Source: Aspidiotus rigidus
Taxonomy: Eukaryota > Arthropoda > Insecta > Hemiptera > Diaspididae
NCBI GenBank assembly: GCA_035079385.1
Contig: JAVHKY010000023.1
Span: forward strand, 7,208,001-7,272,000
Direction of reading: 5' to 3'
Length of the DNA: 64,000 bases
The notes under the pieces are model-generated. The model was not told where the DNA came from, did not search any database, and was given only the letters and a program-made list of their open reading frames with translations. Made by a program: the position numbers and the translations under genes. This document shows positions 2,879-58,635 of this stretch, in pieces (the stretch's first letter is position 1; every line of letters starts with the position of its first letter).

Positions 2879-3223
2879 TCAGGATTGAACGAGCGACCCC
2901 TCGCGAGGTGACTCAAACTCGTAGACCAATTCGACTAAACCTTCGTCGGGAAAATACCTGTTGAGTACGGTAATATCGTCACTGTTCAGATGACGCACTA
3001 TTTCGATATTTTCCAACGCAACGCGCTTGAAGTAAGAATTCTCCTTGTGGAGAAGGGTAGCCGAACCTTCCTTGAAACTATGACCACTGGAGATAAGGTG
3101 GTCCGCAAAGGCCGAATCACCCAAATTACCTTTCTTCCAGGCCTTAAGGTGCTCCTCTACTCGAATTCCAAGCTGGCGACCCATCTCGCCTATGTATACG
3201 CCGTTACAATCCCTGCACTCCAA
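2879..3223 (-). pseudogene. PLE GIY-YIG endonuclease domain (copy A)
   Basis: A 114-codon frame that continues the RT frame after a frameshift. It shows the PLE-type GIY-YIG nuclease: ECRDCNGVYIGEMGRQL (CxxC plus the YIG half), the catalytic-helix region RVEEHLKAW, then ADHLISSGH and LENIEIVRHLN, ending SLVQS. In PLEs this domain nicks target DNA for insertion. Here it is cut off from its RT, so it is non-functional. Confidence 0.85.
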
Positions 3224-4193: not shown

Positions 4194-4299
4194 TTCTATT
4201 TGTAAAAGAGGTTAGGTTTCTCGTTAATAATAGTAAATTCATCATTGGGAAACCTCTAACCAAAAAAAGCCATTTTGGAACTTAACCCCGGCTACCAAA

Positions 4300-5530: not shown

Positions 5531-5531
5531 T

Positions 5532-14900: not shown

Positions 14901-17012
14901 CTGACCACCCTCTACAAATACAGTTGAACATTCCGGAATAGGCGTTTTCAATTTACAGAGACGCATAGTATATGGTGGTAAGACCAAATCTTCAGCTGGA
15001 GTCAAAGGTATTTTCCTACTATTTTCATCTATCTCTTCAGATTTCTCTGGAAAGAACCACCATTGACCCGCTTTAATGAAAGCTTCTAAATCAGTTCTGT
15101 ATAATATATCTTTCCCAATAACTATGTCTTCTTCTTGAAGATCATTAGGCACTATGTGTACCTCAAGTTTAGTCTTGTAGGCACCCAATGAAATATCTAT
15201 GTTTGCAACTCCTTTTGTGTAGCCACTATGTACTTTGCCATAAGCTATTATTTCATTACACTGTGGTACAATGGTTAATTGTAATTCTTCTGCAGTATCT
15301 TCCCTAACTGTTGTAATATCACTTCCACAATCAACAAAGCCAACTATCAACACATCATTGACTTTACATTCAGTATATCCCGCATTTGTCTTTCCTTCTC
15401 CCAAATTAAGTTTTCGGGAGGATAGTTTAGGGCAATTTTCGGCCTTGTGTCCGTACCAATTACATTTGGAGCATTGAATTTTATCTTTAGGGCAATCAGC
15501 TAACCGGTGTCCTACAGCAGAACAATTGAAACAAGTTATATTCTTCGCGTCTGGTTTCCCAGTTTTCTTTAGATCTTTTCCAGTTGGTTGATGGTTTTCA
15601 TTACGAGGTTCATTTTTGGGAGTGGAACTCTTACTAGTGTTTGAGTCACTGGGTCTTTTATCAGATCGATTCCAAGAATTATCAAAACCAAATCTACCGT
15701 TTCCTTTAAAAGGAGTCGTGGGTTTATTTTTCCAATTTATATTAGTCTTTCGACGGCACTGGCGGGCTATATGTCCTTCTTTATTACATATGTAACATTT
15801 CTTCTTTGTCATAGTAGGTGCAGAACTTTCCTGTACTACATCTTGCCGTGAAAATGGTAAAATACAGTGTTGATAAAGATCTTCAGGAGTTTCAAAACGA
15901 TGTGCTTTGCTACTGGTTTTAATAACTCTATCAGTTATTCCATCTATAATGTGATCCACCTGCTGCCATGGTGTTAGCTGACATGGCCGTAATAGAGCTA
16001 ACTTTGCAAAATAGTACTTTTCATAGCTTTCTCCTGCTTCCTTGACACGTTTCTTCATTTGTTCCATATCGACAGCATGGTCTCTTGATTCAGGGAAAGT
16101 GCGTAATAATAACTCCTTCCACTCTTCCCAAGAATATTGATAGTCAACCAAGTTATCATACCAATCGCACCCTATTCCACGAAGTCGCGCTTGCATGTGG
16201 TAAATTGTAGTGGTCTCAGTCCACTTGAACATATCTTTAAATTGTTCCAACGTGTGCAACCATTGCTGCGTTGTCCATTTTCTTTGACTAGGATCATACT
16301 CCGGTATGCTTTCCAATTTCATGGTTTGGTGTGTAGGCCATGACGCTCTTTTCTCATTCTGAGATAAGAGCAAGTTTATCAGTTCTTCTTGCCGTGCTAT
16401 CACAGACTGTAAAATCACTTCCGAGTCTGTACGCGCCCTCTTTGCGCTTTCATTAGGCAAATTCTCTTCCATTTCATTACTCTGTCTCTTTCTATGTGAA
16501 ACAGAACCTCCTTGGGAACCTTCAGTTTTCTCGGCATCCTGCGATTCATCTTCTATATCAATTCTATTCAAATCCATATCATCATGCAGGTTAGGACCGC
16601 GACTACGGAGCTTTCCCCGCGTCTGTGCCCCACCCCTGACCGACCGCGACTCCCCTTCCTTCTGAGGATTCGCTGGGCAAGTCTCTTCTCCTTGAAACTC
16701 CCCAATCAATCGGGGGTGTTCTACACCTCTACTCGAAGAATGAACATCTCTTGGGCGCACTAATGGTCGACCATCTGGTTTCCCACTAGACTTTTGCCCT
16801 CTCCTCCTTCGTGAGGAATTCTCAATTATCAAATCATTTCTCCGAGCAAAGGGCGCCGGGATATCTGCCATTTCCTCTTCGGCGGCTGCTGTTCCAACAT
16901 ATACTTGAGCTTCAACTTCCTGAATCATAGGTTCATCTTCATCTTCTGAACTTGGTGATACTTGTCGAAGAAGCCTATTATTCGTGGCTTTCAACTTTTG
17001 TCTCGTTAGCAT
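11946..17012 (-). CDS. Ty3/Gypsy gag-pol polyprotein
   Basis: A single uninterrupted frame of about 1,688 residues. The first ATG is at 17,010-17,012, about 41 bases inside the 5' LTR. In order: an acidic then basic N-terminus; a capsid-like region (about residues 200-390); three CCHC zinc knuckles near 408, 496 and 516 (for example CYICNKEGHIARQC); a retropepsin site at about 564, where the usual DT/SG reads DCGSD; RT with YLDD near 973; RNase H with TDASS near 1,123; an integrase zinc region (HHDDNAHPG with CLNCL) near 1,336; and a DDE core with MDHLGPF, ADRGSAF and GQVERLN near 1,406-1,496. Gag and pol are fused without a frameshift. The C-terminus has no chromodomain that I recognise. Codons are intact throughout, so the copy may be functional. 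Confidence 0.93.
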   Translation of the reverse strand: MLTRQKLKATNNRLLRQVSPSSEDEDEPMIQEVEAQVYVGTAAAEEEMADIPAPFARRNDLIIENSSRRRRGQKSSGKPDGRPLVRPRDVHSSSRGVEHPRLIGEFQGEETCPANPQKEGESRSVRGGAQTRGKLRSRGPNLHDDMDLNRIDIEDESQDAEKTEGSQGGSVSHRKRQSNEMEENLPNESAKRARTDSEVILQSVIARQEELINLLLSQNEKRASWPTHQTMKLESIPEYDPSQRKWTTQQWLHTLEQFKDMFKWTETTTIYHMQARLRGIGCDWYDNLVDYQYSWEEWKELLLRTFPESRDHAVDMEQMKKRVKEAGESYEKYYFAKLALLRPCQLTPWQQVDHIIDGITDRVIKTSSKAHRFETPEDLYQHCILPFSRQDVVQESSAPTMTKKKCYICNKEGHIARQCRRKTNINWKNKPTTPFKGNGRFGFDNSWNRSDKRPSDSNTSKSSTPKNEPRNENHQPTGKDLKKTGKPDAKNITCFNCSAVGHRLADCPKDKIQCSKCNWYGHKAENCPKLSSRKLNLGEGKTNAGYTECKVNDVLIVGFVDCGSDITTVREDTAEELQLTIVPQCNEIIAYGKVHSGYTKGVANIDISLGAYKTKLEVHIVPNDLQEEDIVIGKDILYRTDLEAFIKAGQWWFFPEKSEEIDENSRKIPLTPAEDLVLPPYTMRLCKLKTPIPECSTVFVEGGQKGPDIYIPRCVTSPDGFLPVINMTDKERKLSPKRILARAVQANLDITTEKVQHERGKPFTVTDLQSVVGENVKEEDLQQLLELINEFRDCFAADLSELGMSTIGSMEITLLDPEPVVYRPYRLSHSEREYVKEHIAELKKYGIVRDSQSPYSSPILLVKKKDGGLRMCCDFRRLNSKIVRQQYPLPRIDDLIDCMLDAKYFSSLDLAWGYWQIPMEPNSIDKTSFVTPDGQFEWLRQPFGLSNGGAVFQRVINTILGPLSGSGIVAYLDDIMIPSKDCKENLKKLRQIFEALRKVKLTLRLEKCRFLFDKVSYLGQEIENGQVRPGIEKIQAVESFPQPKSVKEVRQFIGLASYFRKFIKDFSLLASPLTKLTKKEVEFNWQQTHQMAFETLKKKLITRPVLAIYNPAAETELHTDASSIGIAGILMRRQPDHTLKPVLYFSQQTTDDEKKYHSYELETLAIVRSLQRMRVYLYGKKFKVITDCSALRYTLTKKDINPRIARWWLLIQDFEFDVEYRAGTSMKHVDALSRSPVEKLNPQDTDTIADKVINIKRMNELDLDDWVKIAQLQDVKCRELMEAINMQKPTSRAKEIKRDFVLKRGRLYRRAETGLKWVVPRSARAQILRMYHDDNAHPGVTKTEELIRQRFWFPKLRKYVEDYLRACLNCLYVKPKRGESAGKLHPIPKPQLPMDTIHMDHLGPFLQTARKNTHLLVIVDAFTKYVWLWPSKSTTTNGVIKFVEQLASIFGFPRRIIADRGSAFKSDEFAQYCKDHGILLILTAVSTPRAAGQVERLNAVVLDKLIAIIPDEISWDKYLSQVTMSINNTVSESTGKTPNELLLGFRPRLTAEAPLVNEIDPDRREETEKTPQDEFEQRRMSNRAEAVQRNKEVQNKMMEKNKNRRAARKFNKEDYVLITNQHPATKTKLRFKGPYKITKPYPHDRYKVENFDKQHRKYDAVHAPEHLKRIEIFADSPAESDVSDAGEM

Positions 17013-17053
17013 GATCAATCAGTGGTCGTGATTTCTTTATCCCACTTCTGAAA

Positions 17054-17810: not shown

Positions 17811-18351
17811 AATTCCTAGTACCCTTCCATAAAAATTTACTTTGGAAATAGTGATATTTTCCATTAACTTTTTGGATTTATCGATGTCTATAATAAACGG
17901 TATCTATGAATTTGGAATTTACAGGAAAGATACTACGACCGATATTTTAGTCCACGGAGGTTCGTTCCGTCCTGTTGTTCATAAGATGATTGCCTTTAAT
18001 AGCCTAGTTCACAGACTCACTCATGTCCCTTTCAGTCAGGCTGCTTTCAAGAAAGAATTACTCACAATAAAGCACCTGGCCAGAGTGAATGGGGTCAACG
18101 TTGTTGTTGATGTATTGGTTCGGAGGAAAGTTACGAGGAGCATTCTCGATTCCACCACCTCCTTCCCCCGAGACACGATCCGTGATCGTCGCAAGCGTTG
18201 GATCAGTCTCCCTTTCCTGGGGAAGTTCTCCTTCCAATTGGGTCGGGCCCTCCACCCGTTCTGCTTCAGACCCGCGTTTTACAACCCTACCACAGTCAAT
18301 GGGTTGTATGTGATGCTGAAGGATTCCATACCCCCCGCCCCCGTATGCAAA
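17811..18351 (+). mobile_element. Penelope-like element copy C, 3' part
   Basis: Resumes the PLE split at 9,930. The frame at 17,842-18,357 reads INFLDLSMSIINGIYEFG, RKDTTTDILVHGG, LTIKHLARVNGVNVVVD and FCFRPAFYNPTTVNGL, i.e. the RT-endonuclease linker. The GIY-YIG domain is absent. The copy stops at about 18,340 and another PLE follows in the same orientation, so the two are head-to-tail. Confidence 0.85.
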
Positions 18352-20210
18352 CTATAACAATAACCGAACACAACTTGGGAAATTTGGTAGGAGTGATCCA
18401 AGGTTTAACGAGGAAGGTTAAGGAGGGAGATTTAAACGTCACTAAGGCTGACAAGGGCAATGCTGTTGTGGTGATGGAGAAATCCGCCTATGCTTCTAAG
18501 GTCCACGAAGTGCTCCAGCAATGTGGTGCTAAAGAGAGTGAGGATTTCAGCTTCCCTAAGAATGTTAAATAAGTTAGGAGTGTCATCAACAAGTGCGAGG
18601 CTATTATCGGAACTCCAGCTATGAAAAAAACTCTCCTTCTCCTAACCTCACGCCCCCCTCCTTTACGGGCTGCTCAAAGTGCATAAGAATAATACCCCGA
18701 TGGGATTTGTGGTTTCATTTATCTCCTCTCCCACCTACCTCCTTGCCAAATTTCTGGACCGTTGGTTCAAACATCGCATTGAGTTTGAATCTCCTCACTC
18801 GGTCTTGAATTCGGGCACTTTAACTGACGTCCTGAAGGGTGTAAGTCTTCCCCCGGGAACGATCATGTGCTCGTTTGATGTTGTTGGTTTGTCCCCGAAT
18901 ATTCCTAAGGCTGCTTCTATCCAGCATATGGGTGAGCTACTTGTCAAAGCCAACATTCCTCACAATGAGTTTCAAGAATTTTTCGATCTCCTGAATCTTT
19001 GCTGGTCCCCCAACTGTTGTGAATTCGAAGGGAAATTTTTCGAGTTCCCTGATGAAGTAAGGATCCCTCTTGGATCACGTTTAGGCTCTCTCATCTCGGA
19101 AATTTTCATGCTTAAGTTTGAACTTGACCTCTTTTACTCGAACCGGGTGTTGCTTAATCATATCCACTATTGGCACAATTAGGGTATCTCAATTCCTAGT
19201 ACCCTTCCATAAAATTTACTTTGGAAAAAGGGTATTTTTCATCGATATCTATGATAGACGGTATCCATGTGTTTGGAATTTACAGGAAAGATACTACGAC
19301 CGATGTTTTAGTCCACGGTGGTTCGTTCGGTCCTGTTGCTCATAAGGTGGCTGCTTTTCACAGCCTAGTTCACAGACTGACTCGTATTCCTTTGAGTCAG
19401 TCTTCCTTCAATATAGAGTTACTCACAATAAAACACCTGGCCAGAGTGAATGGGGTCAATGTCGATGTTGACGTGATGATTCGGAGGAAAGTTACGAGGA
19501 GCATTCTCGATTCCACCACCTCCCACCCCCGAGACACGATCCGTGATCGCCGTTTGCGTTGGATCAGCGTCCCTTTCGTGGAGGAGTTCTCCCTCCAATT
19601 GGGTCGGGCCCTCCGCCCGTTTGGCTTCAGACCCGCGGTTTACAACCCTACCACAGTCAAAAGGTTGTTTGTGAGACTGAAGGACCCCATACCTGTTGAT
19701 GAGAGGAGTGGTATTTACAAGTTGGAATGTGGGGATTGTGGAGGCTTTTATATTGGTGAGACCAGCCGCCAAATGAAAGTTAGAGTAGTTGAGCACCGGA
19801 AGTCTTGGAAGAAGGGACACTTAGAGGAGTCGGCTATTGCTGATCATTTAATAAACAGTGGCCACAGCTCCCGCGAGGAATCCGAAAAGCTCCTCCATGA
19901 GGAGAATTCCTATCGTAAGCGCATCGCCCTCGAGCATATAGAGATAATGCGTCATCTAAACACCGACGGTGTCACTGTACTCAACTCGTACATTCCGGAA
20001 GATGGCCTGATCGAACTGCTTTATGATTCACACCGCGATTTCTCGTTTGGACAATCTTAATACCTTGCTCTTCTTTTCTGTTCGTCAGTTGCTTTCAATT
20101 GAGTCCTGATTGATGATGGTTTATTAACCGAAAGCGCTCGTCGTCTCAACTTTTTCTGCGGTTTGCATTGTTTACTCTTCCTTCGGAGTATTCTTCCTTT
20201 CGCGTTTATT
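18352..20210 (+). mobile_element. Penelope-like element copy D, near full length but broken
   Basis: Covers the N-terminal block (frame 18,198-18,572), the linker LAKFLDRWFKHRIEFESPH, the RT motif CSFDVVGLSPNIPKA, then a deletion near 19,178 where YWHRYVDD should be (the frame reads HIHYWHN and stops). The RT catalytic aspartates are therefore gone. The downstream frame 19,221-20,060 is open and carries the linker and an intact-looking GIY-YIG domain (CGDCGGFYIGETSRQMKVRV, then ADHLINSGH) ending FSFGQS. The 3' tail to about 20,210 has GATGATGG, eight bases, then CCGAAAGCGCTCGTCGTC. Confidence 0.85.
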
Positions 20211-22787: not shown

Positions 22788-24265
22788 TCACAGGATGAAT
22801 CTGTCTTGTAGGAAACTTTGGAGAATTTTTGGAAGATTTCCTCGTAGACCGAATGTAAATAGTTGTTTACATATGTAATGTCTCCAGACCCGCGGGTATG
22901 CTTCTTGAAGATCGAAGAATATTGTATAGAGGAGGGATTTCGAAAGGAAGGCTTGTTGAATTTGGGTGTGGAGGTCGGCAAGAGCTTGAATTGAATTACG
23001 ACCTTTTCTGAAGCCGTATTGTACAGGGGATAGTAGATTGTTTTGTTCGAGGAACCACCAAAGTCTTTTGTTAATTATTTTTTGAAACAGTTTGCCCAAC
23101 ACACTGGTGAGGGCAATGGGCCGATATGAAGAGGGGGAAGACGGATCTTTCCCAGGTTTCAGAATAGGTACCTCCTGATAAAATCGAATTGAAAAGAGAA
23201 AGGAGATATTCAAGAGCGGTAGGGTGAAGATTTTTGAGCATAGTGGCATGTATGTTGTCCGGTCCTGGGGATGCATTTTTGAGATTTTTGTGTAGGGTTG
23301 AGGTGAGTTCGATTTGAGTGATTGGTTGATTGTAACAGTGAGTGTTTTCGGAGGAATCGAAATTTATCAGGGAGGATTCTGATTCATTTTTTTTTTGAAG
23401 GAATGAAGCGGAATAATTTGAGTTCGATGAGACAGAAGAAAAGTGGGAGACAAGTGCTTCGGCTATATCCTGTGTGTGTGTAAAGATTGAATCATTCATT
23501 TCTATGTGGTTAATTTGATGAGAAGAGAACCTCCCTGATAATTTCTTAATGTCTCTCCACATAGAGGCATTAGAAACAGGTTCATTGATATTGGCGACAA
23601 AAGATCTCCATGACTCCTTCTTTGCTGAACGGATCAGGAGTCTTGTTTTGGCTCTTAATTTTTTGTAGTTGATGAAATCGAGTTGAGAGCGAGAGCGGTT
23701 ATAAATTCGGTAAGCTTTGCGTCTGTTCTTAATGGCAATGTTGATTTCGTTTGACCACCATGGGACTTGTCTCGGTTTTAGTGTTCCTGAAGTGAGAGGT
23801 ATTGATGCTTCTGCAGCTTGAATTATAAATTTCGTAAATTGGGCGATTGCTGTTCGATCATTAGAGGGGTCGGGTAAAGAACTTGTGTCGTAGGTGAGAT
23901 CGCGAAATTTGGCCCAATTGGCTTCCTGGGTTTTCCAACGGGGAGTTGATTCAAGGGAAGGAGGGGAGGAGTCTGATGTTAATAGTATAGGGAAATGGTT
24001 GCTGTCGCATGAATCCGGGAGGGTAGACCAATTTAGTGTAGGAGTTATGGATGTTGAACAGAGCGTTAAATCAATGACCGAGAGGGATCCAGAGGACGAA
24101 TTTAGGTAGGTAGGAATTTGAGGGATGTTCAAGATGTTTAAGTCAGGAAAGGAAGATAGAATTTGGTCTATAATGTTACCTCGAGAGTTTGAGTGAAATT
24201 TACCATTTGTTATGATTCCCCATGTTGGGCTATGGGCATTAAAGTCTCCACATAGAACAAAAATT
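22788..24265 (-). pseudogene. LINE ORF2: end of endonuclease and start of RT
   Basis: The first frame (24,265 to about 23,180) opens with the endonuclease motif VLCGDFNAHSPTWG, then VIDLTL and SDSCDSNHFPILL, followed by a linker with NASPGPDNIHATMLKNL. The RT continues in another frame at 22,788-23,180: ILKPGKDPSSPSSYRPIALT, then LLSPVQYGFRKGRNS and FFDLQEAYPRVW. These blocks resemble I-clade RTs. A short deletion between the two removes the usual P-x-x-W-K segment. No FADD is reached. Confidence 0.85.
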
Positions 24266-24612
24266 ACGGCTTCCTTAACGAAGTTCAACGAGGAACGCAG
24301 GGAACCTGTTTTATGATTCGAATGAGATTTGGTATTGAAAATTCAAGGAAGCCTAGATCATATATAGCTCGACAGTCGAAATTTTTCCAAGTCCCCCTTC
24401 TATCATATATAGCTCGAGAGTCGAAATTTTTCTAAGTCCCCCTCCTATCATATATAGCTCGAGAGTCGAAATTTTTCTAAGTCCCTCTCCTATCATATAT
24501 GGCTCGAGGGTCGAAATTTTTCTAAGTTTTTCGCTGGACGGCGCACGGCGGACGGCGCACGGCGGACGGCAGATTTCTCAAATAGCCCCCCATAAAACAG
24601 GTTCCCTGTTAA
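24266..24612 (+). repeat. R45 repeat family, copy 2, inserted in LINE ORF2
   Basis: Begins CGGCTTCCTTAACGAAGTTC and ends CCATAAAACAGGTTCCCTGT. The flanking minus-strand LINE reading is interrupted exactly here, between the two halves of the endonuclease, so the repeat moved into the LINE. Four near-identical 45-bp units lie at about 24,358-24,522, then CTGGACGGCGCACGGCGGAC. Runs of A/T at both borders leave the duplication ambiguous (possibly AAAA). Confidence 0.8.
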
Positions 24613-25003
24613 AAGGGGAAGGGAGAGAGAGTATGAGATCAGAGATTTCTTGTGAATTAGTGTTATGAGAGGGGGGGATGTACAAAGAGCAGAAAGTAAT
24701 AGGTGTATTGTTGAGGTGAGGAATTTTTACCGAAATAGCTATATTTTGTAAAGTTTTGGGAGTTTGTACAGTGTGACTCTCAAGAGAGTTCAGGGCTAGT
24801 ATAGCTGTACCTCCACAGGCTTGGGAGGGGTTGAAGTAATCTTGTCTGTAGAAGTTGTACTGTTGTAAAGTAGTATTGTGGTTTTGTTTCAGATGGGTTT
24901 CTTGTAGAGCTATTATCAATGGTTGGTATTTTGAGATTAGTTGTTTCAGTTCTGCAGAACGTTGGAAGTAACCGTCCAAGTTCCATTGGAGAAGGGTAGT
25001 CAT
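24613..25003 (-). pseudogene. LINE ORF2, N-terminal endonuclease half
   Basis: Starts with an ATG at 25,001-25,003 and reads LLQWNLDGYFQRSAELKQL, then PLIIALQETHLK and AVSVKIP-like residues, i.e. the N-terminal half of an apurinic/apyrimidinic-type endonuclease that nicks target DNA. The QETH motif contains the metal-binding glutamate. It is cut after about 128 residues by the R45 insertion. Confidence 0.85.
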
Positions 25004-25221
25004 TTGAATAAATTAGAATAAGTGAGGTTAGTAAGGGGAGTTAAATGGTTCGTTTGGGTAAGGTTCGTGAGGGGAGCTTGAATTAAGCTGTTGTAATGTG
25101 TATGTTTAAATATCGAAGGAAAACTTGTCTGAGCAGTTATGAGTGAAATTACAAACATGATGATAGGAATATCAAAATGAGAAGTGACTAATATGCATAA
25201 TGTAAACATAGTCTACGAGAG

Positions 25222-25251
<30 letters not shown>
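25222..25251. repeat. A30 homopolymer in the LINE ORF1-ORF2 spacer
   Basis: Thirty A on the plus strand (T on the element's coding strand) between the ORF1 stop (25,270) and the ORF2 start (25,003). Its polarity is opposite to a poly(A) tail of this element, so it may mark a separate small insertion. Confidence 0.85.
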
Positions 25252-25253
<2 letters not shown>

Positions 25254-25269
25254 AGAGTTTATTTCCAAA

Positions 25270-26649
25270 TCAATTTGTTGACTGATTTGTTGATTCTGCG
25301 AGGTCTACCATTTTAACCGTGGATTGATTGAATTGGTTAATAATTCTCGTAATGCGGTTTTTGGTTCCTTTATGCTTCAGAGTTTCACGGAGTTTTTCCA
25401 AAGTTTCTACAAATTTTTGTGGGTCCGTAGAGTAGGCAGCGAGGTCAATATCCTTTGTTTTTGAGTTTTGTAGTTCGTTTACAAATTCGATAAGATCTTG
25501 AGGGTTGATCTTATGTTCATTGGCTTCAGATTGGCCGAATTCGGTAATAGCATTTTTTATTCCCGACGCTGTCATCAGATTTGGTTCTGCTAGATTGGAG
25601 TCTTCTTTTGACTTTTTATGTGTTGGTTTGTCAGTGGTTGAGGAGTTAGAATCGGATGTGCGGCGGAATTGTCTTTTCTGCGAGGGCGAATGAACTTCTT
25701 CTTCAGTCTCAATAATATTCGGATCTATATCCATTGCAGGTGGACTGGTGGATATAGGATCACTGATCGAGATTTCGGCATTTGAGGAGATGTTTGCTAT
25801 AGGCGTATTTGGATTTTCTTGGTCAAGAGATTTAGACCCTCGTTTCGATCGGGCTATTTTTAATTTTTCGTCGAAGGTGAGATTTTTATTATCTAGGTGA
25901 TCATGTGTCTGAGTTAAATTAGCGATTGGGTCTTTTTCAATTTTCTGGGATGAATTTGCGTTTTTGGAATCCTTTCCTTCATCGTCACTAGTGTTATTTG
26001 TCATTGGACAATTTGTTGCTTGGTGGGAACTGCTGTTGCAGAGGTGGCATCTCTGTTCTTCGTCTGTCAAGAAGACACGGTACGTCTCGTTTTCAAATGT
26101 GATAAGTAGAGATTCCGGGATTGTCAAGTTGTCTTCATCTTCAATGTAGATTCCTCTTCGAAAGCTAGTTACATGCGCATATTGAGATAGTTCCGATTCA
26201 GTGAATGATTTCGATGATAAACCAATGTGCAGTTCGTGTATTGCAGAAGTCGGTTTCACGTTGTAGTCGAGTAGAATGGAATTTGGTATGCATGGGTGGA
26301 CATTTGAGATTATTAATCTTCGAGAAGGAGCAACGAGTTTTCTTATGGTGGTCTGTTTATTTTTGATACAAATTGTCTTATGATTTTCCAGTAATTTTGT
26401 GACTGTGGATTCACTGTCTAGATAGATGCATATTCTTTTTTTTGCAATTTTTGATGCCGACAAAACATTTGGAGGGCCAACCAATCTCCCAATTGTGACA
26501 ATGTAATCAATTAAGGCGAGTTCTTCATCGTAGGATATTAGAATAGCCTGTTTTTTCGAAGGGTATGATTTAACTATTCTGGCGAATGAACGGTTGTACG
26601 TACCTGGTTGATGATTTTGAGCAGTTGATTGATTTTGCGTGGAGGACAT
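25270..26649 (-). CDS. LINE ORF1 nucleic-acid-binding protein
   Basis: An intact 459-residue frame with ATG at 26,647-26,649. The N-terminal 180 residues look like an RRM-like fold (IVTIGRLVGPPNVL, RICIYLDSE, RRLIISNVHPCIP). A single CCHC zinc knuckle, CHLCNSSSHQATNC, lies near residue 200. The rest is polar, S/N/D-rich, then helical near the C-terminus. ORF1 proteins of I/Jockey-type elements bind the element RNA. ORF2 is destroyed, so the frame is a fossil that remains open or the relic of a recent copy. Confidence 0.85.
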   Translation of the reverse strand: MSSTQNQSTAQNHQPGTYNRSFARIVKSYPSKKQAILISYDEELALIDYIVTIGRLVGPPNVLSASKIAKKRICIYLDSESTVTKLLENHKTICIKNKQTTIRKLVAPSRRLIISNVHPCIPNSILLDYNVKPTSAIHELHIGLSSKSFTESELSQYAHVTSFRRGIYIEDEDNLTIPESLLITFENETYRVFLTDEEQRCHLCNSSSHQATNCPMTNNTSDDEGKDSKNANSSQKIEKDPIANLTQTHDHLDNKNLTFDEKLKIARSKRGSKSLDQENPNTPIANISSNAEISISDPISTSPPAMDIDPNIIETEEEVHSPSQKRQFRRTSDSNSSTTDKPTHKKSKEDSNLAEPNLMTASGIKNAITEFGQSEANEHKINPQDLIEFVNELQNSKTKDIDLAAYSTDPQKFVETLEKLRETLKHKGTKNRITRIINQFNQSTVKMVDLAESTNQSTN

Positions 26650-29040: not shown

Positions 29041-30272
29041 ATTAGACGAATACGTTCCTCAAGGTTACGGCTATCCATAATAAACGCGAAAAACGAATAG
29101 TCCGAGGGAGAGTAAACAGTGCAAACCGCAGAAAAATACAAGACGACGAGCGCTTTCGGTTAATAAACCATCTTCAAGCCTGAAATGAAAGCAACTGACG
29201 AACAGAAAAGAAGAGCAGGGTATTAAGATTGTCCAAACGAGAAATCGCGATGTGAATCATAAACCAGTTCGATCAGGCTATCTTCCGGAATGTACGAGTT
29301 GAGTACAGTGATGCCGTCGGTGTTGAGATGACGCATTATCTCTATATGCTCGAGGGCGATGCGCTTACGATAGGAATTCTCCTCATGGAGGAGCTTTTCG
29401 GATTCCTTGCGGGAGCTGTGGCCACTGTTTATTAAATGATCAGCAAAACCTGACTCCCCTAGGTGTCCCTTCTTCCCAGACTTCAGGTGCTCAGCTACTC
29501 TAACTTTCATTTCGCGGCTGGTCTCACCAATATAAAAGCCTCCACAATCCCCACATTCCAACTTGTAAACACCACTCCTCTCATCAACGGGTATGGGATC
29601 CTTCAGTCTCACAAACAACCTCTTGACTGTGGTAGGGTTGTAAAACGCGGGTCTAAAGCCAAACATAGGGAGGGCCCGACCCAATTGGATGGAGAACTCC
29701 CCCAAGAAAGGGAGACTGATCCAACGCAAACGGCGATCACGGATCGTGTCTCGGAGGAGGGAGGTGGTGAAATCGAGAATGCTCCTCGTAACTTTCCTCC
29801 GAATCATCACGTCAACATCGACATTGACCCCATTCACTCTGGCCAGGTGTTTTATTGTGAGTAACTCTTTGTTGAAGGCAGACTGACTCAAAGGAATACG
29901 AGTCAGTCTGTGAACTAGGCTGTGAAAAGCAGCCATCTTATGAGCAACAGGACAGAACGAACCACCGTGGACTAAAACATCGGTCGTAGTATCTTTCCTG
30001 TAAATTCCAAATGCATACATACCGTCTATTATAGACATCGATAAATCCAAAAAGTTAATGGAAAATACCCCTATTTCCAACGTAAATTGATGGAAAGTTA
30101 CCAGGAATTGAGATACCTCAGATACTCATCAAGGAGATCTGGAGGACCAGTCCAGGTACATAGAACGTCATCAACGTACCTGTGCCAATAGTGAATATGA
30201 TTAAGTAACACCTGGTTCGAGTAAAGAGGTCAAGTTCAAACTTGGGCATGAAAATTTCCGAGATTAGAGAGC
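29041..30272 (-). mobile_element. Penelope-like element copy E, 3' part
   Basis: On the minus strand: 3' part of the RT (SLISEIFMPKFELDLF), linker, GIY-YIG nuclease, stop at 29,223 and a 3' tail to about 29,041. The palm aspartates near 30,180 sit in a shifted frame. The element is interrupted at 30,272 by an LTR element and resumes at 31,413. Confidence 0.85.
29223..30080 (-). pseudogene. PLE linker plus GIY-YIG endonuclease (copy E)
   Basis: A 285-codon open frame: INFLDLSMSIIDGMYAFG, RKDTTTDVLVHGGSFCP, LTIKHLARVNGVNVDVDV, FGFRPAFYNPTTVKRL, then ECGDCGGFYIGETSREMKV and ADHLINSGH, ending HRDFSFGQS. The nuclease half looks complete (CxxC, YIG, Arg and His/Glu helix). It lacks an in-frame RT upstream, so it is not a working retroelement protein. 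Confidence 0.85.
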
Positions 30273-47529: not shown

Positions 47530-49985
47530 TTTTCGATTTTTCATTTTGGAGATCATCTAGGACCATTTCAGTATTATTCTTGAACACGGCGCTGAATTTT
47601 ACTTCAGAATTGAGAAAAACTTTTGAAGATTACGCAACTTTTCATCTTGGAGGAATTGTGATTCTCTTTGAGCCCATCATCCCGTTTTGGTGCTCCAAAG
47701 TATTTTTTAAGCATCTTTTTCAGACTCAGCGCGAAAGTCCACTTGAAAATCAAATTAAAATGTGAAAGTTTAAACAATTTTCCAACTTGGGGGAATTTTG
47801 GCTCTTTTTGGGTCCATTAACCCTTTTTAAGTGCTTTGAAGAGCTTTTCAAGCATTTTTTTTCAGACTCAGCGCGAAATTCCACTTAAAAATTGAATTAC
47901 AATTCAAATTTAACAACTTGGGGGAATTTTGGCTCCTTTTGGGTCCATTAACCCTTTTTAAGTGCTTTGAAGAGCTTTTTAAGCATTTTTTTCAGACTCA
48001 GCGCGAAAGTCCACTTAAAAATCAAATTAAAATATGAAAGTTTGAACACTTTTTCAATTTGGGGAAATGTTGGCCCTTTTTTTGACCCATTAACACATTT
48101 TTGTGCTTCAAGGAATTTTTCAAGAATTTTTTTCGGACTCAGCGCAACATGGCACTTGAAAATCGAATGAAAATTTGAAAGTTTGAACGATTTACCAATT
48201 TAGTAAAATGTTGGCCCATTTTGGGCCCATTAACCCCTTTCTAGTACTTCGAAAAGCTGTTTGAGCATTTTTTTTCGGACCCAGCGCAAAATTCCACTTG
48301 AAAATCAAATTAAAATTTGAAAGTTTGAATTCTTTTCCCATTCGGGGAAATTTTGACCTTTTTTGGGCCCATTGATCCATATCGGTGCTTCGAAGAATTT
48401 TTTAAACATGTTTTTCGGACTCAGTGCGAAATTCCACTTAAAAATTGAATTACAATTCAAATTTTCCAACTTGGGAGAATTTTGGCTCTTTTTGGGCCCA
48501 TTAACTCTTTTTTAGGTGCATTGAAGAGTTTTTTAAGCATTTTTTTTTTGGACTCCGCGCAAAAGTTCACTAGAAAATCAAATTAAAATTTGAGAGTTTG
48601 AACGATTTTTCTATTTGGGGAAATTTTGATCCTTTTTGGGCCCATTGACCCATTTTGGTGCTTCAAGGAATTTTTCAAGCATTTAGTTTCGGACTCAGCA
48701 CAAAATGGGACTTGGAAATCGAATTAAAATTTGAAAGTTTGATCGATTTTCCAATTTGGGAAAATTTTGGCCCTTTCTGGTACTTCGAAGAACTGTTTGA
48801 GCATTTTTTTTTTTCGGACTCAGCGCAAAATTCCACTTGAAAGACAAATTAAAATTTGAAAGTTTAAAAAATTGTCCAATTTGGGGAAATTTTGTGGGCG
48901 CATTAACCCATGTCGGTGCTTCGAAGAATTTTTTAAACACGTTTTTCGGACTCAGCGCAAAATTCCACTTGAAAATTGAATCACAATTCAAATTTTCCAA
49001 CTTGGGAGAATTTTGGCTCTTTTTGGGTGCTTTGAAGAGCTTTTTAAGCATTTTTTTCGGACTCAGCGCAACATGGCACTTGAAAATTGAATTAAAATTT
49101 GAAAGTTTGAACGATTTACCAATTTAGGAAAATTTTGGCCCATTTTGGGCCCATTAACCCCTTTCTAGTACTTCAAAAAACTGTTTAAGCATTTTTTTTT
49201 CAGACTCAGCGCAAAATTCCACTTGAAAATCAAATTAAAATTTGAAAGTTTGAATACTTTTCCCATTCGGGGAAATGTTGACCTTTTTTGGGCCCATTGA
49301 TCCATATCGGTGCTTCAAAGAATTTTTTAAACACGTTTTTCGGACTCAGTGCGAAATTCCGCTTCAAAATCGAATTACAATTCAAATTTTCCAACTCTGA
49401 AGAATTTTGACTCTTTGTGGGCCCATAACCCCTTTTAGGTGCATTGAAGAGCTTTTTAAGCATTTTTTTTGGACTCCGCGCAAAAGTTCACTTGAAAATC
49501 AAATTAAAATTTGAGAGTTTGAACGATTTTTCTATTTGGGGAAATTTTGATCTTTTTTGGGCCCATTGACCCATTTTGGTGCTTCAAGGAATTTTTCAAG
49601 CATTTAGTTTCGGACTCAGCGCAAAATGGGACTTGGAAATGGAATTAAAATTTGAAAGTTTGATCGATTTTCCAATTTGGGGAAATTTTGGCCCTTTCTG
49701 GTACTTCGAAGAACTGTTTGAGCATTTTTTTTTCGGACTCAGCGCAAAATTCCACTTGAAAGTCAAATTAAAATTTGAAAGTTTAAATAATTGTCCAATT
49801 TGGTGAAATTTTGATGTTTTGTGGGCGCATTAACCCATGTCGGTGCTTCGAAGAATTTTTTAAAGATTTTTTTCGGACTCAGCGCGAAATTCGACTTAAA
49901 AATCGAATTACAATTCAAAAGTTTGAACAATTTTCCAACTTGGGGGCATTTTGACCCTTTTTGGCCTATTAACCCATTTTGGACT
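47530..49985. repeat. satellite array, about 17 units of 113-161 bp
   Basis: Each unit contains CGGACTCAGCGCAAAATTCC, then ACTTGAAAATCAAATTAAAA, TTTGAAAGTTTGAAC, a GGGGAAATTTTGG block and GGGCCCATTAACCC, ending near TGCTTCGAAGAATTTTT. Unit lengths vary because A/T runs and the middle block change. Starts of the CGGACTC motif lie near 47,711, 47,872, 47,993, 48,135 and so on to about 49,877. Confidence 0.85.
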
Positions 49986-50230: not shown

Positions 50231-52541
50231 TCCCGAAGAGTCTAAATTTTTCTGTGTCTCCTCCTATAATATCTTGCTCGAAAGTCAAAATTTCCTCAAA
50301 GCGGAGAAGATGGCCGACAAACTGACCTAACTTGATGCGAAGACAAAAACCCAACTATAGGAGGGGGAGTTGGAAATATCTAGGGTGATAACATTTTTCA
50401 ACCCAGATTTGAGCTATGTAGGGGTGTTGAAATTGAAAAAATTTCGGGTGGGTCAGTTTTTGCAAAACATCGCGTTGCATAGCACATGGCAAAATTTTGA
50501 AGGAACCCCCAAAGAACAGATCCCCTAAGCTGAATATCGAAGTCAAATTTGTGCAATGAAATTGGTTCCCTAAATTTCTTCTTCCAATTCGTGGAGGAAG
50601 CCGTTCCTTTCCCAGATCCTTTGGTTTCTGAACGGACGCGGGCATTTCTCGTGGGTTTCCTTGCTACAAAATAATCTCCAGAATCTTGACATCAATTTCC
50701 GTTGCGAGATTGCTTAAAAATTTCTTTTAACTTCTCTATTTAGGTCGATTTCGCAACTAAAAAGGGAATGTTTTTTTTTTTTGGGGGGGGGGGGAGGAGG
50801 GGGACGGAAAAATTTGATGTTCATCAGTGGTGAACGTGTTCTACGGATCTCTCGATTCTACCATTTTGTGATAAATTAACTGGCTACAGTAGTTCATACT
50901 TCCAAACTTAATTGCGTTGGGAAGAAGAGTGGTAGAAAGAATAGAGACAACGTTTGCTCAGTCGATATCTACGTCGACGTTTTCAGTGGAAGCGAGGATC
51001 CCTCTCTAGGGTTAGAATCTGTAAGACTTAACATTGATCAGGCGAGGGGCCATAGCGTTGCGTAGAGGCATAAGAAGAACCATGGATGAGGGTATCCATG
51101 GAAGTAGCCTCCCCAATTATGCCAAATTCATGAAGCGTATGTTCTATACAAACATGGTGAGGACGAGAAAGTAAGTATTTTTGCATCCTATTTTCATTTA
51201 GAAAGGGATAGATGCATAGAAGTTAGAGATATGGGGCGAGGAAGAATGATAATACCACTTTTCCACTAGCTCTTATGGAAAAGTGATAACATCATTTGGC
51301 TTCACCCTGCAAGTTAGAGAGGAAATCTTGAATACGTCGGTGTTGTCGAAGTGAGGAAAAGAAATTATTTTCAAATTCGTTCATGAAGGTGTCGACCATT
51401 AAAGAACCAATAGGGTTATCCGTATTTTTCGGAAGAGGATAGAATTTGAAGCGCAATCAGACAAATCCAACCTTGAGTCGGGATAATTTTTTGAGGGGTT
51501 GTTAGTGAAATTTGTAAGAGAGATCGAAAGCTATCGAACAAACGAAAATCAAGTCTCTGCACGCCAAAAATTCGCTCTTGTACAACGATATGAAGATAAA
51601 CACAATCCTCCTCAACTTTCGAAGGCCCGTCCGACACGTGAGGAAAGTTTTTACGCTTCGAAGGTAAGCTCATTGGAAAGCTCGTTGAAAATAGCTAATA
51701 AAGAAGAAAACTTTTTTTTTTGAAATTTTTTTCGTTTTTGCTCGTACTGCGAAAATTAATTTACCGACTTGAGGTTGGATTTTTCTGACTTCTCTCTCTC
51801 TCTCTCAAGAGGCGAGTGGTGGATGACCAGCAGATATTAAAATGATTCATAAATTTATTAGCTTCCTCATGTAGGATGTGTTATTAGGTCACCAAACTTC
51901 GGATGTGCAATTTAGAAAGAGGAATTGATTTGAACACAATAGTATTGTGCAGATAGAAGGGGATACTTTGTACGTATGTAACTAGGACTAAGAGTAACAT
52001 CGGAATCGATCGTGTTAAATGTTAATTCATTTCCGATTGATTCATCCATGAAGTCGCATAAAAATTTCCCTAAATTTGAAATCGCCCAAGTATACACTAC
52101 TGTACGTCTAGCTTAACCTATGTGTAGGTTGTCTACATAATTGAATCTTCTAACCTTTCTTGAAATTAAAAATAATCTAACGTGTAACCTACTGAATTTG
52201 TAATTTTAATGAAGTTCGAAAAATCTTATAATTATTAGAAGCTATATCATCTCTTGAAAAACAATGTATCAGAAGATATACGTACCTAATCATAATTACA
52301 AATGTCCGAAGAAATCTTCATTTGACTACAGAATTAACATAACAGCTAAAAGTCCCCCTTTTGTAAATGGTTCATAATTTTTCGCGATTATATTTCTCTG
52401 TTATAAAGACAGCTGTAGGCTTCGCATTGAGAAGCAGTTTCTGTCGTTACGAAACTACTGGCGGCAGCGAATGCTATACCTCTTTTATAACATAGGATTA
52501 CATTTTCTAAAGAAGTTAAACTTATATCTTTGACAGTCGTG
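50231..52541. other. no gene recognised upstream of the decarboxylase
   Basis: Mixed sequence. A T12-G12-type run lies at about 50,769-50,793. Short frames lack motifs. No bacterial-looking gene or second gene of an operon was found in this flank. The last 150 bases (52,400-52,540) contain two TATAA-like boxes (52,402 and 52,486). Confidence 0.5.
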
Positions 52542-52542
52542 C

Positions 52543-52576
52543 TCAGTTTTCAATATTTGCTGTTTCAAAATGGATA
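52543..52576 (+). promoter_or_regulatory. Inr-DPE core promoter candidate for the decarboxylase
   Basis: TCAGTT at 52,543-52,548 matches the arthropod initiator (TCAGTY, A+1 = 52,545). GGATA at 52,572-52,576 occupies exactly +28 to +32 and matches the DPE consensus RGWYV. The leader would be 25 bases. The start context CAAAATGG is a strong insect Kozak sequence, and there is no Shine-Dalgarno-like purine tract. The match could be chance (roughly one in forty for the DPE once the Inr is given). Confidence 0.5.
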
Positions 52577-54780
52577 ACAACATACTAATAGTCGAATGTT
52601 TGGAATACGAATTCAGTCGAGCTGTGATCAGAGACATTAAAAAATTGTTGGGATGTTCTTATAACGTTATCACCTGCAGTACCCTGTCAGAAGCGGAGCT
52701 GATTGTCAAGTCGAACATTCCCCTGTGTTCATTGCTGTTTTCGAAATCTTTGGGTCATGCGCCCGGCGATTCAACGGCTCCTACGCCGGATTTGTTTGAG
52801 TCCAACGTGGTAGATATTCTACATGCCCGACAGCCAGGAGTGCCGACATTTTATCTGAATGAGGCCACAGAAGTCGACGTGGCCACTACACTCTTGACGA
52901 AAATCAAAGAAATTCTCTTCGTATGTCAGGACGGCGCGGAATTCATCCATGGAAGAATCGTTCATTTTGCCCAACGGTATTTGGAAAATTTATTACCAAC
53001 TTTTACGGACGATCTACGCAAATTCGCGGAAATTTACGAGTACTCGTGGACTATACCAGGCCACCAAGGGGTCGGTATGAAGAAAAGTCCCATCGGTAAA
53101 GCTTTTCTCGACTTTGTCGGGGACAGTGTCTTCAAATTGGATTTGAATAGCTCAAGATCCGACTTGGGATCTCTGTTGGGCCATTCTGGGCCGTTTTTAG
53201 AATCGGAAAAAGAGATTGCCAACATTTTCGGTGCAGAGATATCGTTCACTGGAGTTGTTGGCGGTTCTGGATCGAATCGAACAGTTATGCAGTATTGCAT
53301 GAGGGATAAGGATGTTGTCGTTGTTGACCGCAATTGTCACAAATCCATCGCACACGGTCTCATATTGACGGGGGCAATAGCCGAGTTTGTGAAACCGAGA
53401 AGGAACGAGTACGGCATTATCGGACCATTCAAAATCTCTGAATTGGAGGAAATAATGCAGGATCGGATGATAAGATACTTCGTCATGACTAATTGCACCT
53501 TTGATGGGCTTTGTTATTTCATTGACAAAGCTAAAGATGCTTTATCAAAGGTCAAGTACATCCATTATGATGAGGCTTGGTTTGCTTATGCGAAATTTCA
53601 CCCCATATACGAGGGCACGTATGCTATGCAAGGAGATTATAAAAATTATACGGGCGAATCAACAGTATTTGCGACGCATTCTACACACAAGATGCTGAAT
53701 GCTTTCGGACAAGGGTCATTCATCCATGTGAGGAGCGGTCGTGGTGATGATGCCAAAGTAGTCTCAGAGGATTTCAACCAGTCCTATATGATGCACACGA
53801 CTACATCTCCTTCTTATATTCTTGCAGCTTCGAACGATGTCTCTGCAAGCATGATGAAAGGTGATATGGGCAAATCGCTGGTGCAGGAGTCTCTTATTGA
53901 AGCCATCCATTTCAGGAAAACACTTTCGAGACTTTATTATGACCATACATCAAAAAAGGATCCACTTGATTGGTTTTTCAAACCGTGGAATCCCGAGAAA
54001 ATAGGTGACAAATTATTCCACGAGCTAAAAACGAAAAGTCTCATCGAACAAAAAAATTGGATTTTGAGCCCGAAAGATCTATGGCACGGGTTTGACGAGA
54101 TGGAAAAATCGTGGTGTATGTTGGATCCTCTCAAAGTAACCATAATAACGAAGTTTGAAAATATCCAGATTCCAGCTCCTCTGGTTTGTGTCTGGCTGGC
54201 TAGCAAAGGTGTCACTATTTGTCGGAATACGGAATTTACAATCATGTTCTTGTTTTCGATGGGAGTGACGAAAGGAAAGTGGATCACACTAGTGCAGTAT
54301 CTATCGGAGTTCAAAGAGTTCTACGACAAGGATCTTTGCTTACAAGACATATTACCCGACCTCGTAACGAAACATCCGGAATATGCCAACGAAGGACTGA
54401 AAAGTTTGGGAGACAAGATGATCAAATTCTTGGAAGTTAACGATTTGACCAGTCTTTCGAATGGAGCGGCCTCATATTTGCCGGCCAAGAGCGAAATGTC
54501 TTGTCGGGAAGCTTTCCAGCAAATACCCAGTTCGACCCAATTCGTCCCACTCGAACAGCTTTACAATCGCGTTTCAGCATCGTTCATCATTCCATATCCA
54601 CCTGGAATTCCCATAATAATTTCTGGCGAAAGATTCGGAGAGAAGGACAAGTGTCCGATCGTAAAGTACTTGCTGGCACTCGAACTTTGGGATGAAACAT
54701 TCCCTGGATTTGATCACGAGACGACCGGAGTGAAGAAGGACGAAAACTCAGGGAAGTTTCTGGTTTGTGTCACGAAATGA
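52570..54780 (+). CDS. bacterial-type arginine decarboxylase, AdiA-like, probable horizontally acquired gene
   Basis: An uninterrupted 736-residue frame. ATG at 52,570 is the first in frame, with CAAAATGG context. It is a fold-type-I, PLP-dependent Orn/Lys/Arg decarboxylase. Residues 1-125 form the N-terminal wing domain. PGHQGVG lies at 163-169, the cofactor-phosphate loop GGSGSNR at 231-237, NCHKS with the ring-stacking His at 257, DEAW with the ring-nitrogen Asp at 334, HSTHK with the Schiff-base Lys at 374, the FNQSYMMHTTTSPSY stretch at 402-416, and YPPGIP at 676-681. The length matches bacterial enzymes (about 710-755). Motif wording is nearer AdiA than CadA/SpeC, so L-arginine to agmatine plus CO2 is the likely reaction; lysine or ornithine cannot be excluded. 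It is cytosolic: there is no signal peptide or membrane segment. No introns, with arthropod transposons on both sides. Odd: ALSQAS after the lysine is AFGQGS, and PGHQGG lacks one glycine. Confidence 0.93.
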   Translation: MDNNILIVECLEYEFSRAVIRDIKKLLGCSYNVITCSTLSEAELIVKSNIPLCSLLFSKSLGHAPGDSTAPTPDLFESNVVDILHARQPGVPTFYLNEATEVDVATTLLTKIKEILFVCQDGAEFIHGRIVHFAQRYLENLLPTFTDDLRKFAEIYEYSWTIPGHQGVGMKKSPIGKAFLDFVGDSVFKLDLNSSRSDLGSLLGHSGPFLESEKEIANIFGAEISFTGVVGGSGSNRTVMQYCMRDKDVVVVDRNCHKSIAHGLILTGAIAEFVKPRRNEYGIIGPFKISELEEIMQDRMIRYFVMTNCTFDGLCYFIDKAKDALSKVKYIHYDEAWFAYAKFHPIYEGTYAMQGDYKNYTGESTVFATHSTHKMLNAFGQGSFIHVRSGRGDDAKVVSEDFNQSYMMHTTTSPSYILAASNDVSASMMKGDMGKSLVQESLIEAIHFRKTLSRLYYDHTSKKDPLDWFFKPWNPEKIGDKLFHELKTKSLIEQKNWILSPKDLWHGFDEMEKSWCMLDPLKVTIITKFENIQIPAPLVCVWLASKGVTICRNTEFTIMFLFSMGVTKGKWITLVQYLSEFKEFYDKDLCLQDILPDLVTKHPEYANEGLKSLGDKMIKFLEVNDLTSLSNGAASYLPAKSEMSCREAFQQIPSSTQFVPLEQLYNRVSASFIIPYPPGIPIIISGERFGEKDKCPIVKYLLALELWDETFPGFDHETTGVKKDENSGKFLVCVTK

Positions 54781-54919
54781 AGAATAATTGCAGTAAGTAT
54801 GGAGAGGTGCCCGGAAATATTCTAGCAGATGTAATAATTTGGACGTAGGTAATTATGTTTTAAACGTTTTGTAAGAAAGTGCAATATTGCCTGCCTAGAG
54901 GCGCTCTACTAGAAAAAAT

Positions 54920-54925
54920 AATAAA
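54920..54925 (+). terminator. polyadenylation signal AATAAA
   Basis: AATAAA lies 140 bases after the decarboxylase stop codon, within GAAAAAATAATAAAATTATT. Its position suits the 3' end of a eukaryotic transcript. A GTAAGTAT at about 54,793 could act as a donor in the 3' UTR but has no obvious acceptor. Confidence 0.6.
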
Positions 54926-56199
54926 ATTATTCTGTTTGAAAGTACGTGGTCCAAATTGAAAGAAATACTTTAGATCTGATTTGTATGTAAAGCTTAGGAC
55001 ACAGTTACAAAATTTGCTTCCAAAGGCTCAGAACCTTCGACGAACTTTAGGAGAAAGTTAAGGTAGTCCATCTACGAAAGGTTTTATCATTAGAGCTCTT
55101 AATCTTTCGAGATATTTCCGTCAATTTTCCAATAGCTTTCAACTTTTGAAGAACGTTTTACAAAAAAATTCGAATAGGACTGTATCTCTCTTCCTAAACG
55201 AAGAATAGGTGGATTTATAGTGATTTTCATGATCTTAGATTTAAAACCTGAAAACATTAGTCCCTCTCCTGAAAATCTCTTTCCTTAAGATTCACATATT
55301 AGCTGGGAGGGGAAGTTCAATAAATACATGAAGTCAATGTTATTTCCCCCTTCTCAGCCTGGTATAAACCTGCGGTGCCACAAGACGCAGATGAAAGAAA
55401 ATAAGATCGTTATTTTGTTCACATTAACAAGTAAAATCCAGAATATAATGTATAGATACGTATCTTAATGACGTGAGTCGTAAAGATCATATCCTCTCCC
55501 TCATTAATAAGAAGCGATCGAAAAGTGCATTAATTCTCTCTTCGAATTGTAATCAACTATACAAAGCATTCGTCCCTACTTTCTTTGTGAGAGGTCGTAT
55601 AAATATGGATTAGGATTCGCGATTAATTATTGTAATTATATACAAGAAATGCGAATTTTCGGGTCAGGAAATTTGCCCGCGAAAAAATTGGCGAACAGAA
55701 AAAACAGCCGAAAAGTGTGACCCAGAGAAAAAACTCTTTTGAGATATTGATCAGTATGAAAATTACCTGCGCGAAAAAACTTGTGTGAGAAATTCGACAA
55801 TGAAGAAATTTTCGAGTACTTGGAAAAAAAAAACCAAATTATATCCAGCTCCACCAAAAATAATCTGGCGCGGCCGAATAAATAAAGATCACTTTTATTG
55901 TTTTTCTCAATCTAGCTATCAGTTGAGACAGAATAATATTCGTTTTAATGAATATTGCAGGGCACTGGACACAATGAATACGGTCCGTCTAAAAAATTAA
56001 TACAGAAAGAGTGAGAGAGAACATTTTTTCCAAGGTACTGTCGAGGCTATCGGTAGTCCAGATAGTTTGTCTTAAAATTACCGGTACTATCGATAGTTTG
56101 AATGGAAAATATCGATCAGAAGAAAAGTACCTATGCTAGACGTAGGATAGATACTTTTCTCCTGGTCGTTATTTTTTCAAAAAGCGAGAAATGCATCTC
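54926..56199. other. no gene recognised downstream of the decarboxylase
   Basis: AT-rich sequence with no second bacterial-like gene. Short frames are without motifs. The repeat at 56,200 follows. Confidence 0.5.
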
Positions 56200-56810: not shown

Positions 56811-58635
56811 AGGGCTTGAAAATTAATTAATTTACAGTATTGAACTGAATTTTGAGAATTTTAATAATTCAATTATTGTTTCTTAAGTGAATTTAGACGG
56901 GGAAAACGAAAAAAATAGTAACGAAATCCTAAGAAGCACCAAAATGGGTTAATGGGCCCAAAAAGGGTCAAAATTTCCCCAAGTTGGAAGATTGTTCAAA
57001 CTTTTGAATTGTAATTCGATTTTTGAGTGGAATTTCGCGCTGAGTCCGAAAAAAATGTTTGCAAAATTCTTCGAAGCACCGATACGGGATAATCGGCCCA
57101 AAAAAGGTCAAAATGTTCCCAAATTGGAAAATTGTCCAAAGTTTCAAATTTTTAATTAATTTTCAAGTGGAATTTTGCGTTGAGTCCGAAAAAAATGCAA
57201 AAGGCTCTTTGAAGCATCAAAAAGGGGTTTAATGGTCCCAAAGAGACCCAAAATTTTCCCAAATAGGAAAATCGTTCAAACTTTCGAATTTTAATTCGAT
57301 TTTCAAGTGGACCTTCGCACTGAGTCCGAAAAAAAATGCTTAGAAAATACTTCGGGGCACCGATGGGCTCAAAGAGAATAATTGTGTAATCTTCAAAAGT
57401 TGTTTTCAATTCTGAAGTAAAATTTAGCGCCGAGCCCTAGAATAATACTGAAATGGCCCTAGATGATCTCCAAAATGAAAAATCAAAAATTTTTCTCATT
57501 CTGCAGTGAGATTGCTAATTCAGAGGATGGAAGGAATGTCGACAAGTTCGTCTGCCGTTGAGTGCTCGCGGAGTGAGAGATCGATTAACGTCGGGTGACC
57601 GAACCGAAAGAGGAAATTGCGGAAATTCTCCTCATTTGGGGATTGGAGGGAGACGACAAATTCATCTTCCGTTGAAGGTTTGCGGTGAGAGATCGACTAG
57701 GGCTTTGTGTATGATCACAGCGCGGAAAAGTGCGAAAACTCTCGTTGTTTCGGTGAAAGAACGCAAAGTTGGTCTTCTGTTGCGTGCTTGCGACGAGAGA
57801 TCAACTGACGCCCCACCTATGAACGAAGCGGACCAAAGTACAAAAACTCTTTGATTCAGGCAGTGGGAGGATACCGCAAATCTGGTCTTGCTCGTGATGA
57901 GCGATCAGCTACAGCTATTGAAGCAGACGAACGGCTGGAATTTCTCGGGGTTTCACCTGGAGGAGGGAATGAAACCGTCAAGCTCGACTTTCGTCATGAA
58001 CTCGCTGTAAGGGAACGAACAAGACCCCGTGTTTGAACGAGGCAGTCCAATGATCTCTGTGTTCAACATAGATCGACTGAGGCCCCGTGTATGGTCAAGG
58101 CGGGTACTTCCGCTAAAACTCCTGTTTTTTCTCGCCAAGGAGAGTTCAACAGTTTTTGTTTTTTCAACTCAGTACACAATTTTATCCTAGAATCAAGAAC
58201 AACTTTGAAAGTTAGGCAATTTTTTTCGTATTGGATTAACTCATCTTGGTGCTTCGCAGAATTTTTCAACAATTTTATTCAGATTTAGCGCTAAATGTTA
58301 TCTCAGAATCGTGATAAACTTTGAAGGTTGGAGAAATTTTGACGCTTTTTGGGCCCATAAATCCATTTTGGTGCTTCGTAGAAATTTTTAACAATTTTAT
58401 TCAGATTCAACGCTAAATTTTATCTTAGAATCGGGAAAAACTTCAAAGATTAGGTGGTTTTATCATCTTTGTGAAATTTTGACCCTTTTTTGGCCCATTA
58501 ACCCATTTTAGTGCTTCGCAGAATTTTTTAACAATCTTATTCGGAGTCAGCGCTAAATTTTACTTCAGGATCGGGGCACATTTTGAAAATTACGCGATTC
58601 TTTCAATCAGGAAAATTGTTTTTTGATAATTCACA

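Follow-up and report, generated by a model that had tools for sequence, protein, structure and literature searches.

The nuclear genomes of the sap-feeding insects Bemisia and Planococcus carry bacterial metabolic genes, and in the available excerpts of the reports on them these include argH, dapF, CM, lysA and others, with several of the Bemisia genes being of Enterobacterales origin and lysA having been transferred to the two insects independently (PMC4607527, PMC5664097). Arginine decarboxylase (ADC) is not among the transferred genes named in the same excerpts. A paper on the Drosophila agmatine N-acetyltransferase states, in the part of it available, that little is known of agmatine biosynthesis or ADC in insects, citing one earlier ADC report, and that Drosophila is able to acetylate agmatine (PMC5647378). 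The transfer of bacterial genes to animals is a known kind of event, and it is an animal-acquired ADC that we did not find reported among the matches listed by our search of the open PMC literature (titles and the openings of abstracts). The words 'decarboxylase' and 'arginine' are absent from the main text of PMC5157087, but its supplements, which hold the 142 transferred genes of Bemisia, may already include an ADC from a whitefly.

The window, by which we mean the whole 64-kb stretch of DNA that was analysed, covers positions 7208001–7272000 of contig C23 in a 441-Mb assembly of 102 contigs. The original prediction was of a bacterial-type ADC gene residing in an animal-type genome as a 736-codon frame free of stops, frameshifts and introns, and both the frame (736 aa, with no internal stop or frameshift) and the domain analysis of its product agree with this (Table 1). 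A six-frame search of the assembly returned three full-length stop-free matches, where a single gene had been claimed: the window gene itself (referred to here as C23) and copies on contigs C54 and C30 (100, 91 and 63% identical, respectively). The copies have frames of 736, 738 and 723 aa, lack introns in their coding parts, and are integrated at several loci in long contigs (10.3, 19.1 and 9.5 Mb) of a large, eukaryote-type genome. C54 and the window share 2.86 kb, and because this likeness extends into both flanks, a DNA-level duplication fits better than a retrocopy. C30 has only the coding region in common with C23, but the repeats adjacent to it are also present in the window; among these is a 45-bp minisatellite found at 2049–2226 and 24357–24527 of the window and next to the C30 copy (L085, ~7116–8225), where it is open in several frames.

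Table 1. Features of the window at and around the AdiA-type gene (positions are those of the window).
Feature	Position	Strand	Basis or remark
Copy C23 of the AdiA-type arginine decarboxylase gene, coding part free of introns (ATG at 52570, stop ends at 54780)	52570..54780	+	Frame, domains, structural matches, genome search
HSTHK motif, residues 370–374; K374 aligns with PLP-binding K386 of bacterial Adc	53677..53691	+	Alignment
DEAW motif, residues 334–337	53569..53580	+	Alignment
Stretch common with the C54 copy, 89%; gene with ~290 bp of 5' flank and ~350 bp of 3' flank	52283..55128	+	Comparison with C54
141-bp minisatellite array, upstream	47704..49701		Repeat search
Related 140-bp minisatellite, downstream, inverted orientation	56907..57335		Repeat search
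TATAAA-like site, suggestive only	52402..52407	+	No counterpart in C54 or C30 up to 260 bp from the start
TCAGT, insect-initiator-like, suggestive only; also 30 bp before the C54 ATG	52543..52547	+	Sequence inspection
Start context TCAAAATG, identical in all three copies, insect-like	52565..52572	+	Comparison of copies
AATAAA, candidate polyadenylation signal, 140 bp past the stop	54920..54925	+	Sequence inspection

The gene had also been placed between transposons, and this part of the prediction did not hold, as the nearest neighbours that we found are minisatellite arrays. Ten other frames of the window were tested, and three matched reverse-transcriptase/endonuclease families (one under the Pfam cut-off), all of them distant from the gene. 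We note that the 140- and 141-bp minisatellites flank the gene in inverted orientation, with one pair of arms 88% complementary over 238 nt. By eye, a 1690-aa frame at 11946–17018 (reverse strand) resembles a Gypsy-type retroelement, judged on motifs which we take to be of that type, and reverse-transcriptase/endonuclease frames together with frames that look Penelope-like occur at 3204–6276, 17842–20060, 22788–26649 and 29223–30080, the last having 12 database relatives of up to 75% identity. No tRNA or Rfam matches were found in the 64-kb window. The start context and the TCAGT site were likened to the insect start-context and initiator consensus sequences, respectively, and downstream of C54 there is an AATAAA at +3 and an ATTAAA at +32; the TATAAA-like and initiator-like sites were set aside as promoter evidence because they are inconsistent between the copies. 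Base composition is likewise uninformative, since the third-position G+C of the copies (0.47–0.48) falls inside the range of six bacterial relatives (0.34–0.67).

All three OKR_DC domains are present in the C23 protein, the major (PF01276, 4e-119), C-terminal (PF03711, 2.3e-31) and N-terminal (PF03709, 2.1e-09), and of the six NCBIfam models matched, the arginine decarboxylase PRK15029 was best at 746 bits (746.1), ahead of the lysine models (486 for LdcC, and 428) and the ornithine models (299, 286 and 270). It should be noted that this score falls short of the curated PRK15029 cut-off of 1167 bits, and we therefore regard C23 as an AdiA-type relative and not as an AdiA equivalog. The predicted landmarks HSTHK, DEAW, GGSGSNR and YPPGIP (from residue 676) are all there, as is NCHKS (from residue 255), but the phosphate-loop motif GGSGSNR departs from the GTSGSNR that bacteria mostly have. 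DEAW presumably has a role towards the PLP ring. PGHQGG is one glycine short in each of the three host copies, and the bacterial LLDH is replaced by LLGH in C23 and C30 and by LLGR in C54. The copies also share changes at residues conserved among ADCs, namely E259A (A261), P269A (A271), Y271F, P570I and D202G (G204), and have a shortened loop at 541–547. From the alignment, K374 is the predicted PLP-bearing lysine of C23, as it is matched with K386, which is given as the PLP lysine of P. stuartii Adc in the available excerpt of PMC8983666. The nearest solved structures are the bacterial ADCs 7p9b, 2vyc and 5xx1 (~627 bits), and the AF2 model (pLDDT 77.7) returned ADC chains at Foldseek ranks 1–12. 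With a TM-score of ~0.70, an rmsd of ~14, and residues 142–180 and 182–198 unreliable at a pLDDT below 50, the model supports the fold only, which would be of the bacterial ADC type overall.

In our careful 39-row tree the host copies form one clade (100/100) inside an eight-row clade (100/100) which includes the Serratia proteins P0002 and P0111 plus P0001, P0004 and P0055, and is itself nested within bacterial, largely gammaproteobacterial, ADCs. A quick tree of 60 rows agrees with this, and LdcI and SpeF rows were included in neither. AU tests were made on a 38-row quick tree with clades picked once the tree was known, and here a constraint that groups all 32 bacteria of the ADC clade and leaves the host copies outside was rejected (p-AU 0.007), while for an eight-row group that is enterobacterial in part the same constraint gave a p-AU of 0.03. 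Placement inside or beside the Serratia-type clade was not distinguished (p 0.20 in the tree without P0055), and the exact sister is unsure because the host branch, at 1.4–1.8 changes per column, is long and the composition of the host rows was flagged as unusual. P0055, a long-branched ADC among the JGI proteins, joins the host copies at 94/99; it may derive from a symbiont or from a different host, or be drawn there by long-branch attraction. The best listed protein relatives of the copies are at most 47% identical, no bacterial near-twin was found among the best 80 loci of at least 593 matched stretches (best 45%), no viral-contig relative was found in a single scan using the query's own patterns, and no eukaryotic relative was named among the best 120 of 3896 and the best 120 of 3885 protein matches, many rows of which have no organism label. 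Judged by sequence, the copies are one clade within bacterial AdiA-type ADCs, beside or inside the Serratia-type enzymes; changes common to all of them, such as the shortened loop and D202G, are in keeping with one transfer and later duplication, and the transfer looks old. The bacterial origin claimed earlier is upheld by the tree and the AU tests.

The retention under selection that had also been proposed is evident from comparisons between the copies. Pairwise dN/dS, determined by four methods, was 0.22–0.32 for C23–C54, 0.26–0.35 for C23–C30 and 0.29–0.39 for C54–C30 (NG86 bootstrap 95% limits 0.17–0.30, 0.20–0.32 and 0.22–0.36, respectively). The flanks of C23 and C54 have diverged by 0.11 (5') and 0.17 (3') substitutions per site, which is close to dS (0.145–0.19), unlike dN (0.04–0.05), and their 152 single-base differences include no stops where ~6.2 would be expected under neutrality (P ~0.002). 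When polarised by C30, the changes in C23 are 24 nonsynonymous and 34 synonymous, and those in C54 are 37 and 25 (unpolarised, 11 and 21), which suggests that C54 is under weaker constraint. By domain, NG86 dN/dS was 0.14–0.21 for the PLP and aminotransferase parts, 0.11–0.24 for the linker and 0.34–0.43 for the wing and C-terminal parts. C23 keeps 60 of the 62 columns that are invariant in 59 bacterial and archaeal relatives (C54 and C30 each keep 59, with C54 lacking the invariant H203), and 129 of the 144 that are invariant in 38 ADC-clade rows (C54, 128; C30, 125); outside these 144 columns the copies are 35–37% identical to the best protein match, P0001 (C23, 36%). Purifying selection has kept the protein, and has been weaker for C54.

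These results bear on two readings in which the gene would have no role in the host. The protein family is bacterial, as would be seen with bacterial contamination or a misassembly, but the low identity to the best listed relatives speaks against this, as do the three loci, each on a long contig of its own and with repeats in common, and with C23 lying within a 10.3-Mb contig we rule contamination out and attach almost no probability to it. That the copies are recent insertions now decaying without function would accord with the relaxed constraint on C54, and with the lack of a TATAAA-like site within 260 bp upstream of that copy; we consider this very improbable, however, as pairwise dN/dS is well below 1 and all three frames are intact even though dS between C30 and the other copies has reached 0.68–0.98.

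Two further readings accept a working protein and differ over what it does. On the basis of the phylogeny the likely substrate is arginine, and the likely activity the conversion of L-arginine to agmatine. The original prediction had offered an alternative polyamine route, and the path from arginine through agmatine to putrescine is indeed standard in bacteria and plants, but this is weakened by our exon-by-exon six-frame genome search, which found no match to PF00491 (arginase/agmatinase) or PF04371 (agmatine deiminase), the controls being prokaryote genomes only (positive in 8/14 for PF00491, 5/14 for PF04371 and 13/14 for PF02784). Such searches can overlook split genes. The same search recovered the ornithine decarboxylase (ODC) family, PF02784, as apparently three genes on C3, in pieces or across stops as introns would cause, and as one single frame on C20. 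With ODC-like genes present and neither standard route to putrescine matched, we do not expect agmatine to be turned into putrescine along those routes; we favour arginine disposal, or agmatine as an end product, over polyamine synthesis, which we hold to be improbable. A shift to a basic amino acid other than arginine, to an amine or to a non-catalytic role is unlikely but carries more weight, as C23 scores under the PRK15029 cut-off and all copies are changed at ADC-conserved sites (including D202, E259 and P269), which suggests that substrate or regulation may have shifted. Set against this are the PLP lysine and nearly all of the invariant columns kept by C23, and the nesting of the copies among ADCs in trees from which LdcI and SpeF were absent.

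We note that the seven PF02784 matches at C3:18334189–18353540 (L087–L093), apparently three adjacent intron-split genes, look like a local expansion of ODC relatives. The C20 frame is a bacterial-type lysA (diaminopimelate decarboxylase; TIGR01048, 430 bits against a cut-off of 298) of 411 aa in one frame (L086:1384–2619; C20 near 4393246–4393950), and is a second bacterial-type metabolic gene in this genome. A gene of this kind would suit a sap-feeding hemipteran as host, which is the group that we consider probable.

The explanation that we prefer, and consider probable, is of one old transfer of an enterobacterial-type adiA, with duplications and retention of an arginine decarboxylase that serves arginine disposal and/or agmatine supply. 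One such gene would have entered the nuclear genome of an ancestor of the host, probably a sap-feeding hemipteran, and been duplicated at least twice, with the copies retained under selection. The protein would be a cytosolic fold-type-I decarboxylase with PLP on K374 that converts L-arginine to agmatine and CO2, and as our search matched no enzyme leading from agmatine to putrescine, agmatine is a probable end product, perhaps excreted or acylated; the gene would then serve disposal and/or supply and not polyamine synthesis. The gene, its copies, their place in long contigs, the nesting among bacterial enzymes, the selection and the protein family are established by the results above; arginine specificity, the cytosolic location, the fate of agmatine, the host group and the single transfer are what we infer here. 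More tentatively, agmatine itself might be the selected product of the three genes derived from one Enterobacterales transfer, with no step from agmatine to polyamines, whether it acts as a sink for arginine, as an endogenous signalling amine or as an amine delivered into the tissue of the host plant. Little is understood of where insects obtain agmatine, a question that becomes testable with a bacterial-type ADC kept under selection in three copies in an animal.

Compared with known systems, C23 is like the biodegradative, acid-induced AdiA/Adc enzymes of E. coli (2VYC), Salmonella (5XX1) and P. stuartii (7P9B) in having the three domains, the PLP lysine and the invariant core, in grouping within the ADC clade and in its best fold matches, and is ~44–46% identical to the Salmonella-type protein. 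It differs from them in its eukaryote-type genome, shortened loop, fast-changing wing domain and a PRK15029 score under the cut-off. Animal ODC (PF02784) is also a PLP-dependent basic amino acid decarboxylase, but has a different fold (fold type III) and is encoded in the same genome by separate, apparently intron-split genes. Ddl, which Planococcus citri has according to the excerpt available of a review (PMC5664097), had no match in our genome search. As in Bemisia and Planococcus, a lysA is found here, and the host is probably likewise a sap-feeding hemipteran, but the transfers described in the available portions of those reports mostly complete biosynthesis, whereas the C23 enzyme would consume arginine and would thus be a transfer that degrades an amino acid.
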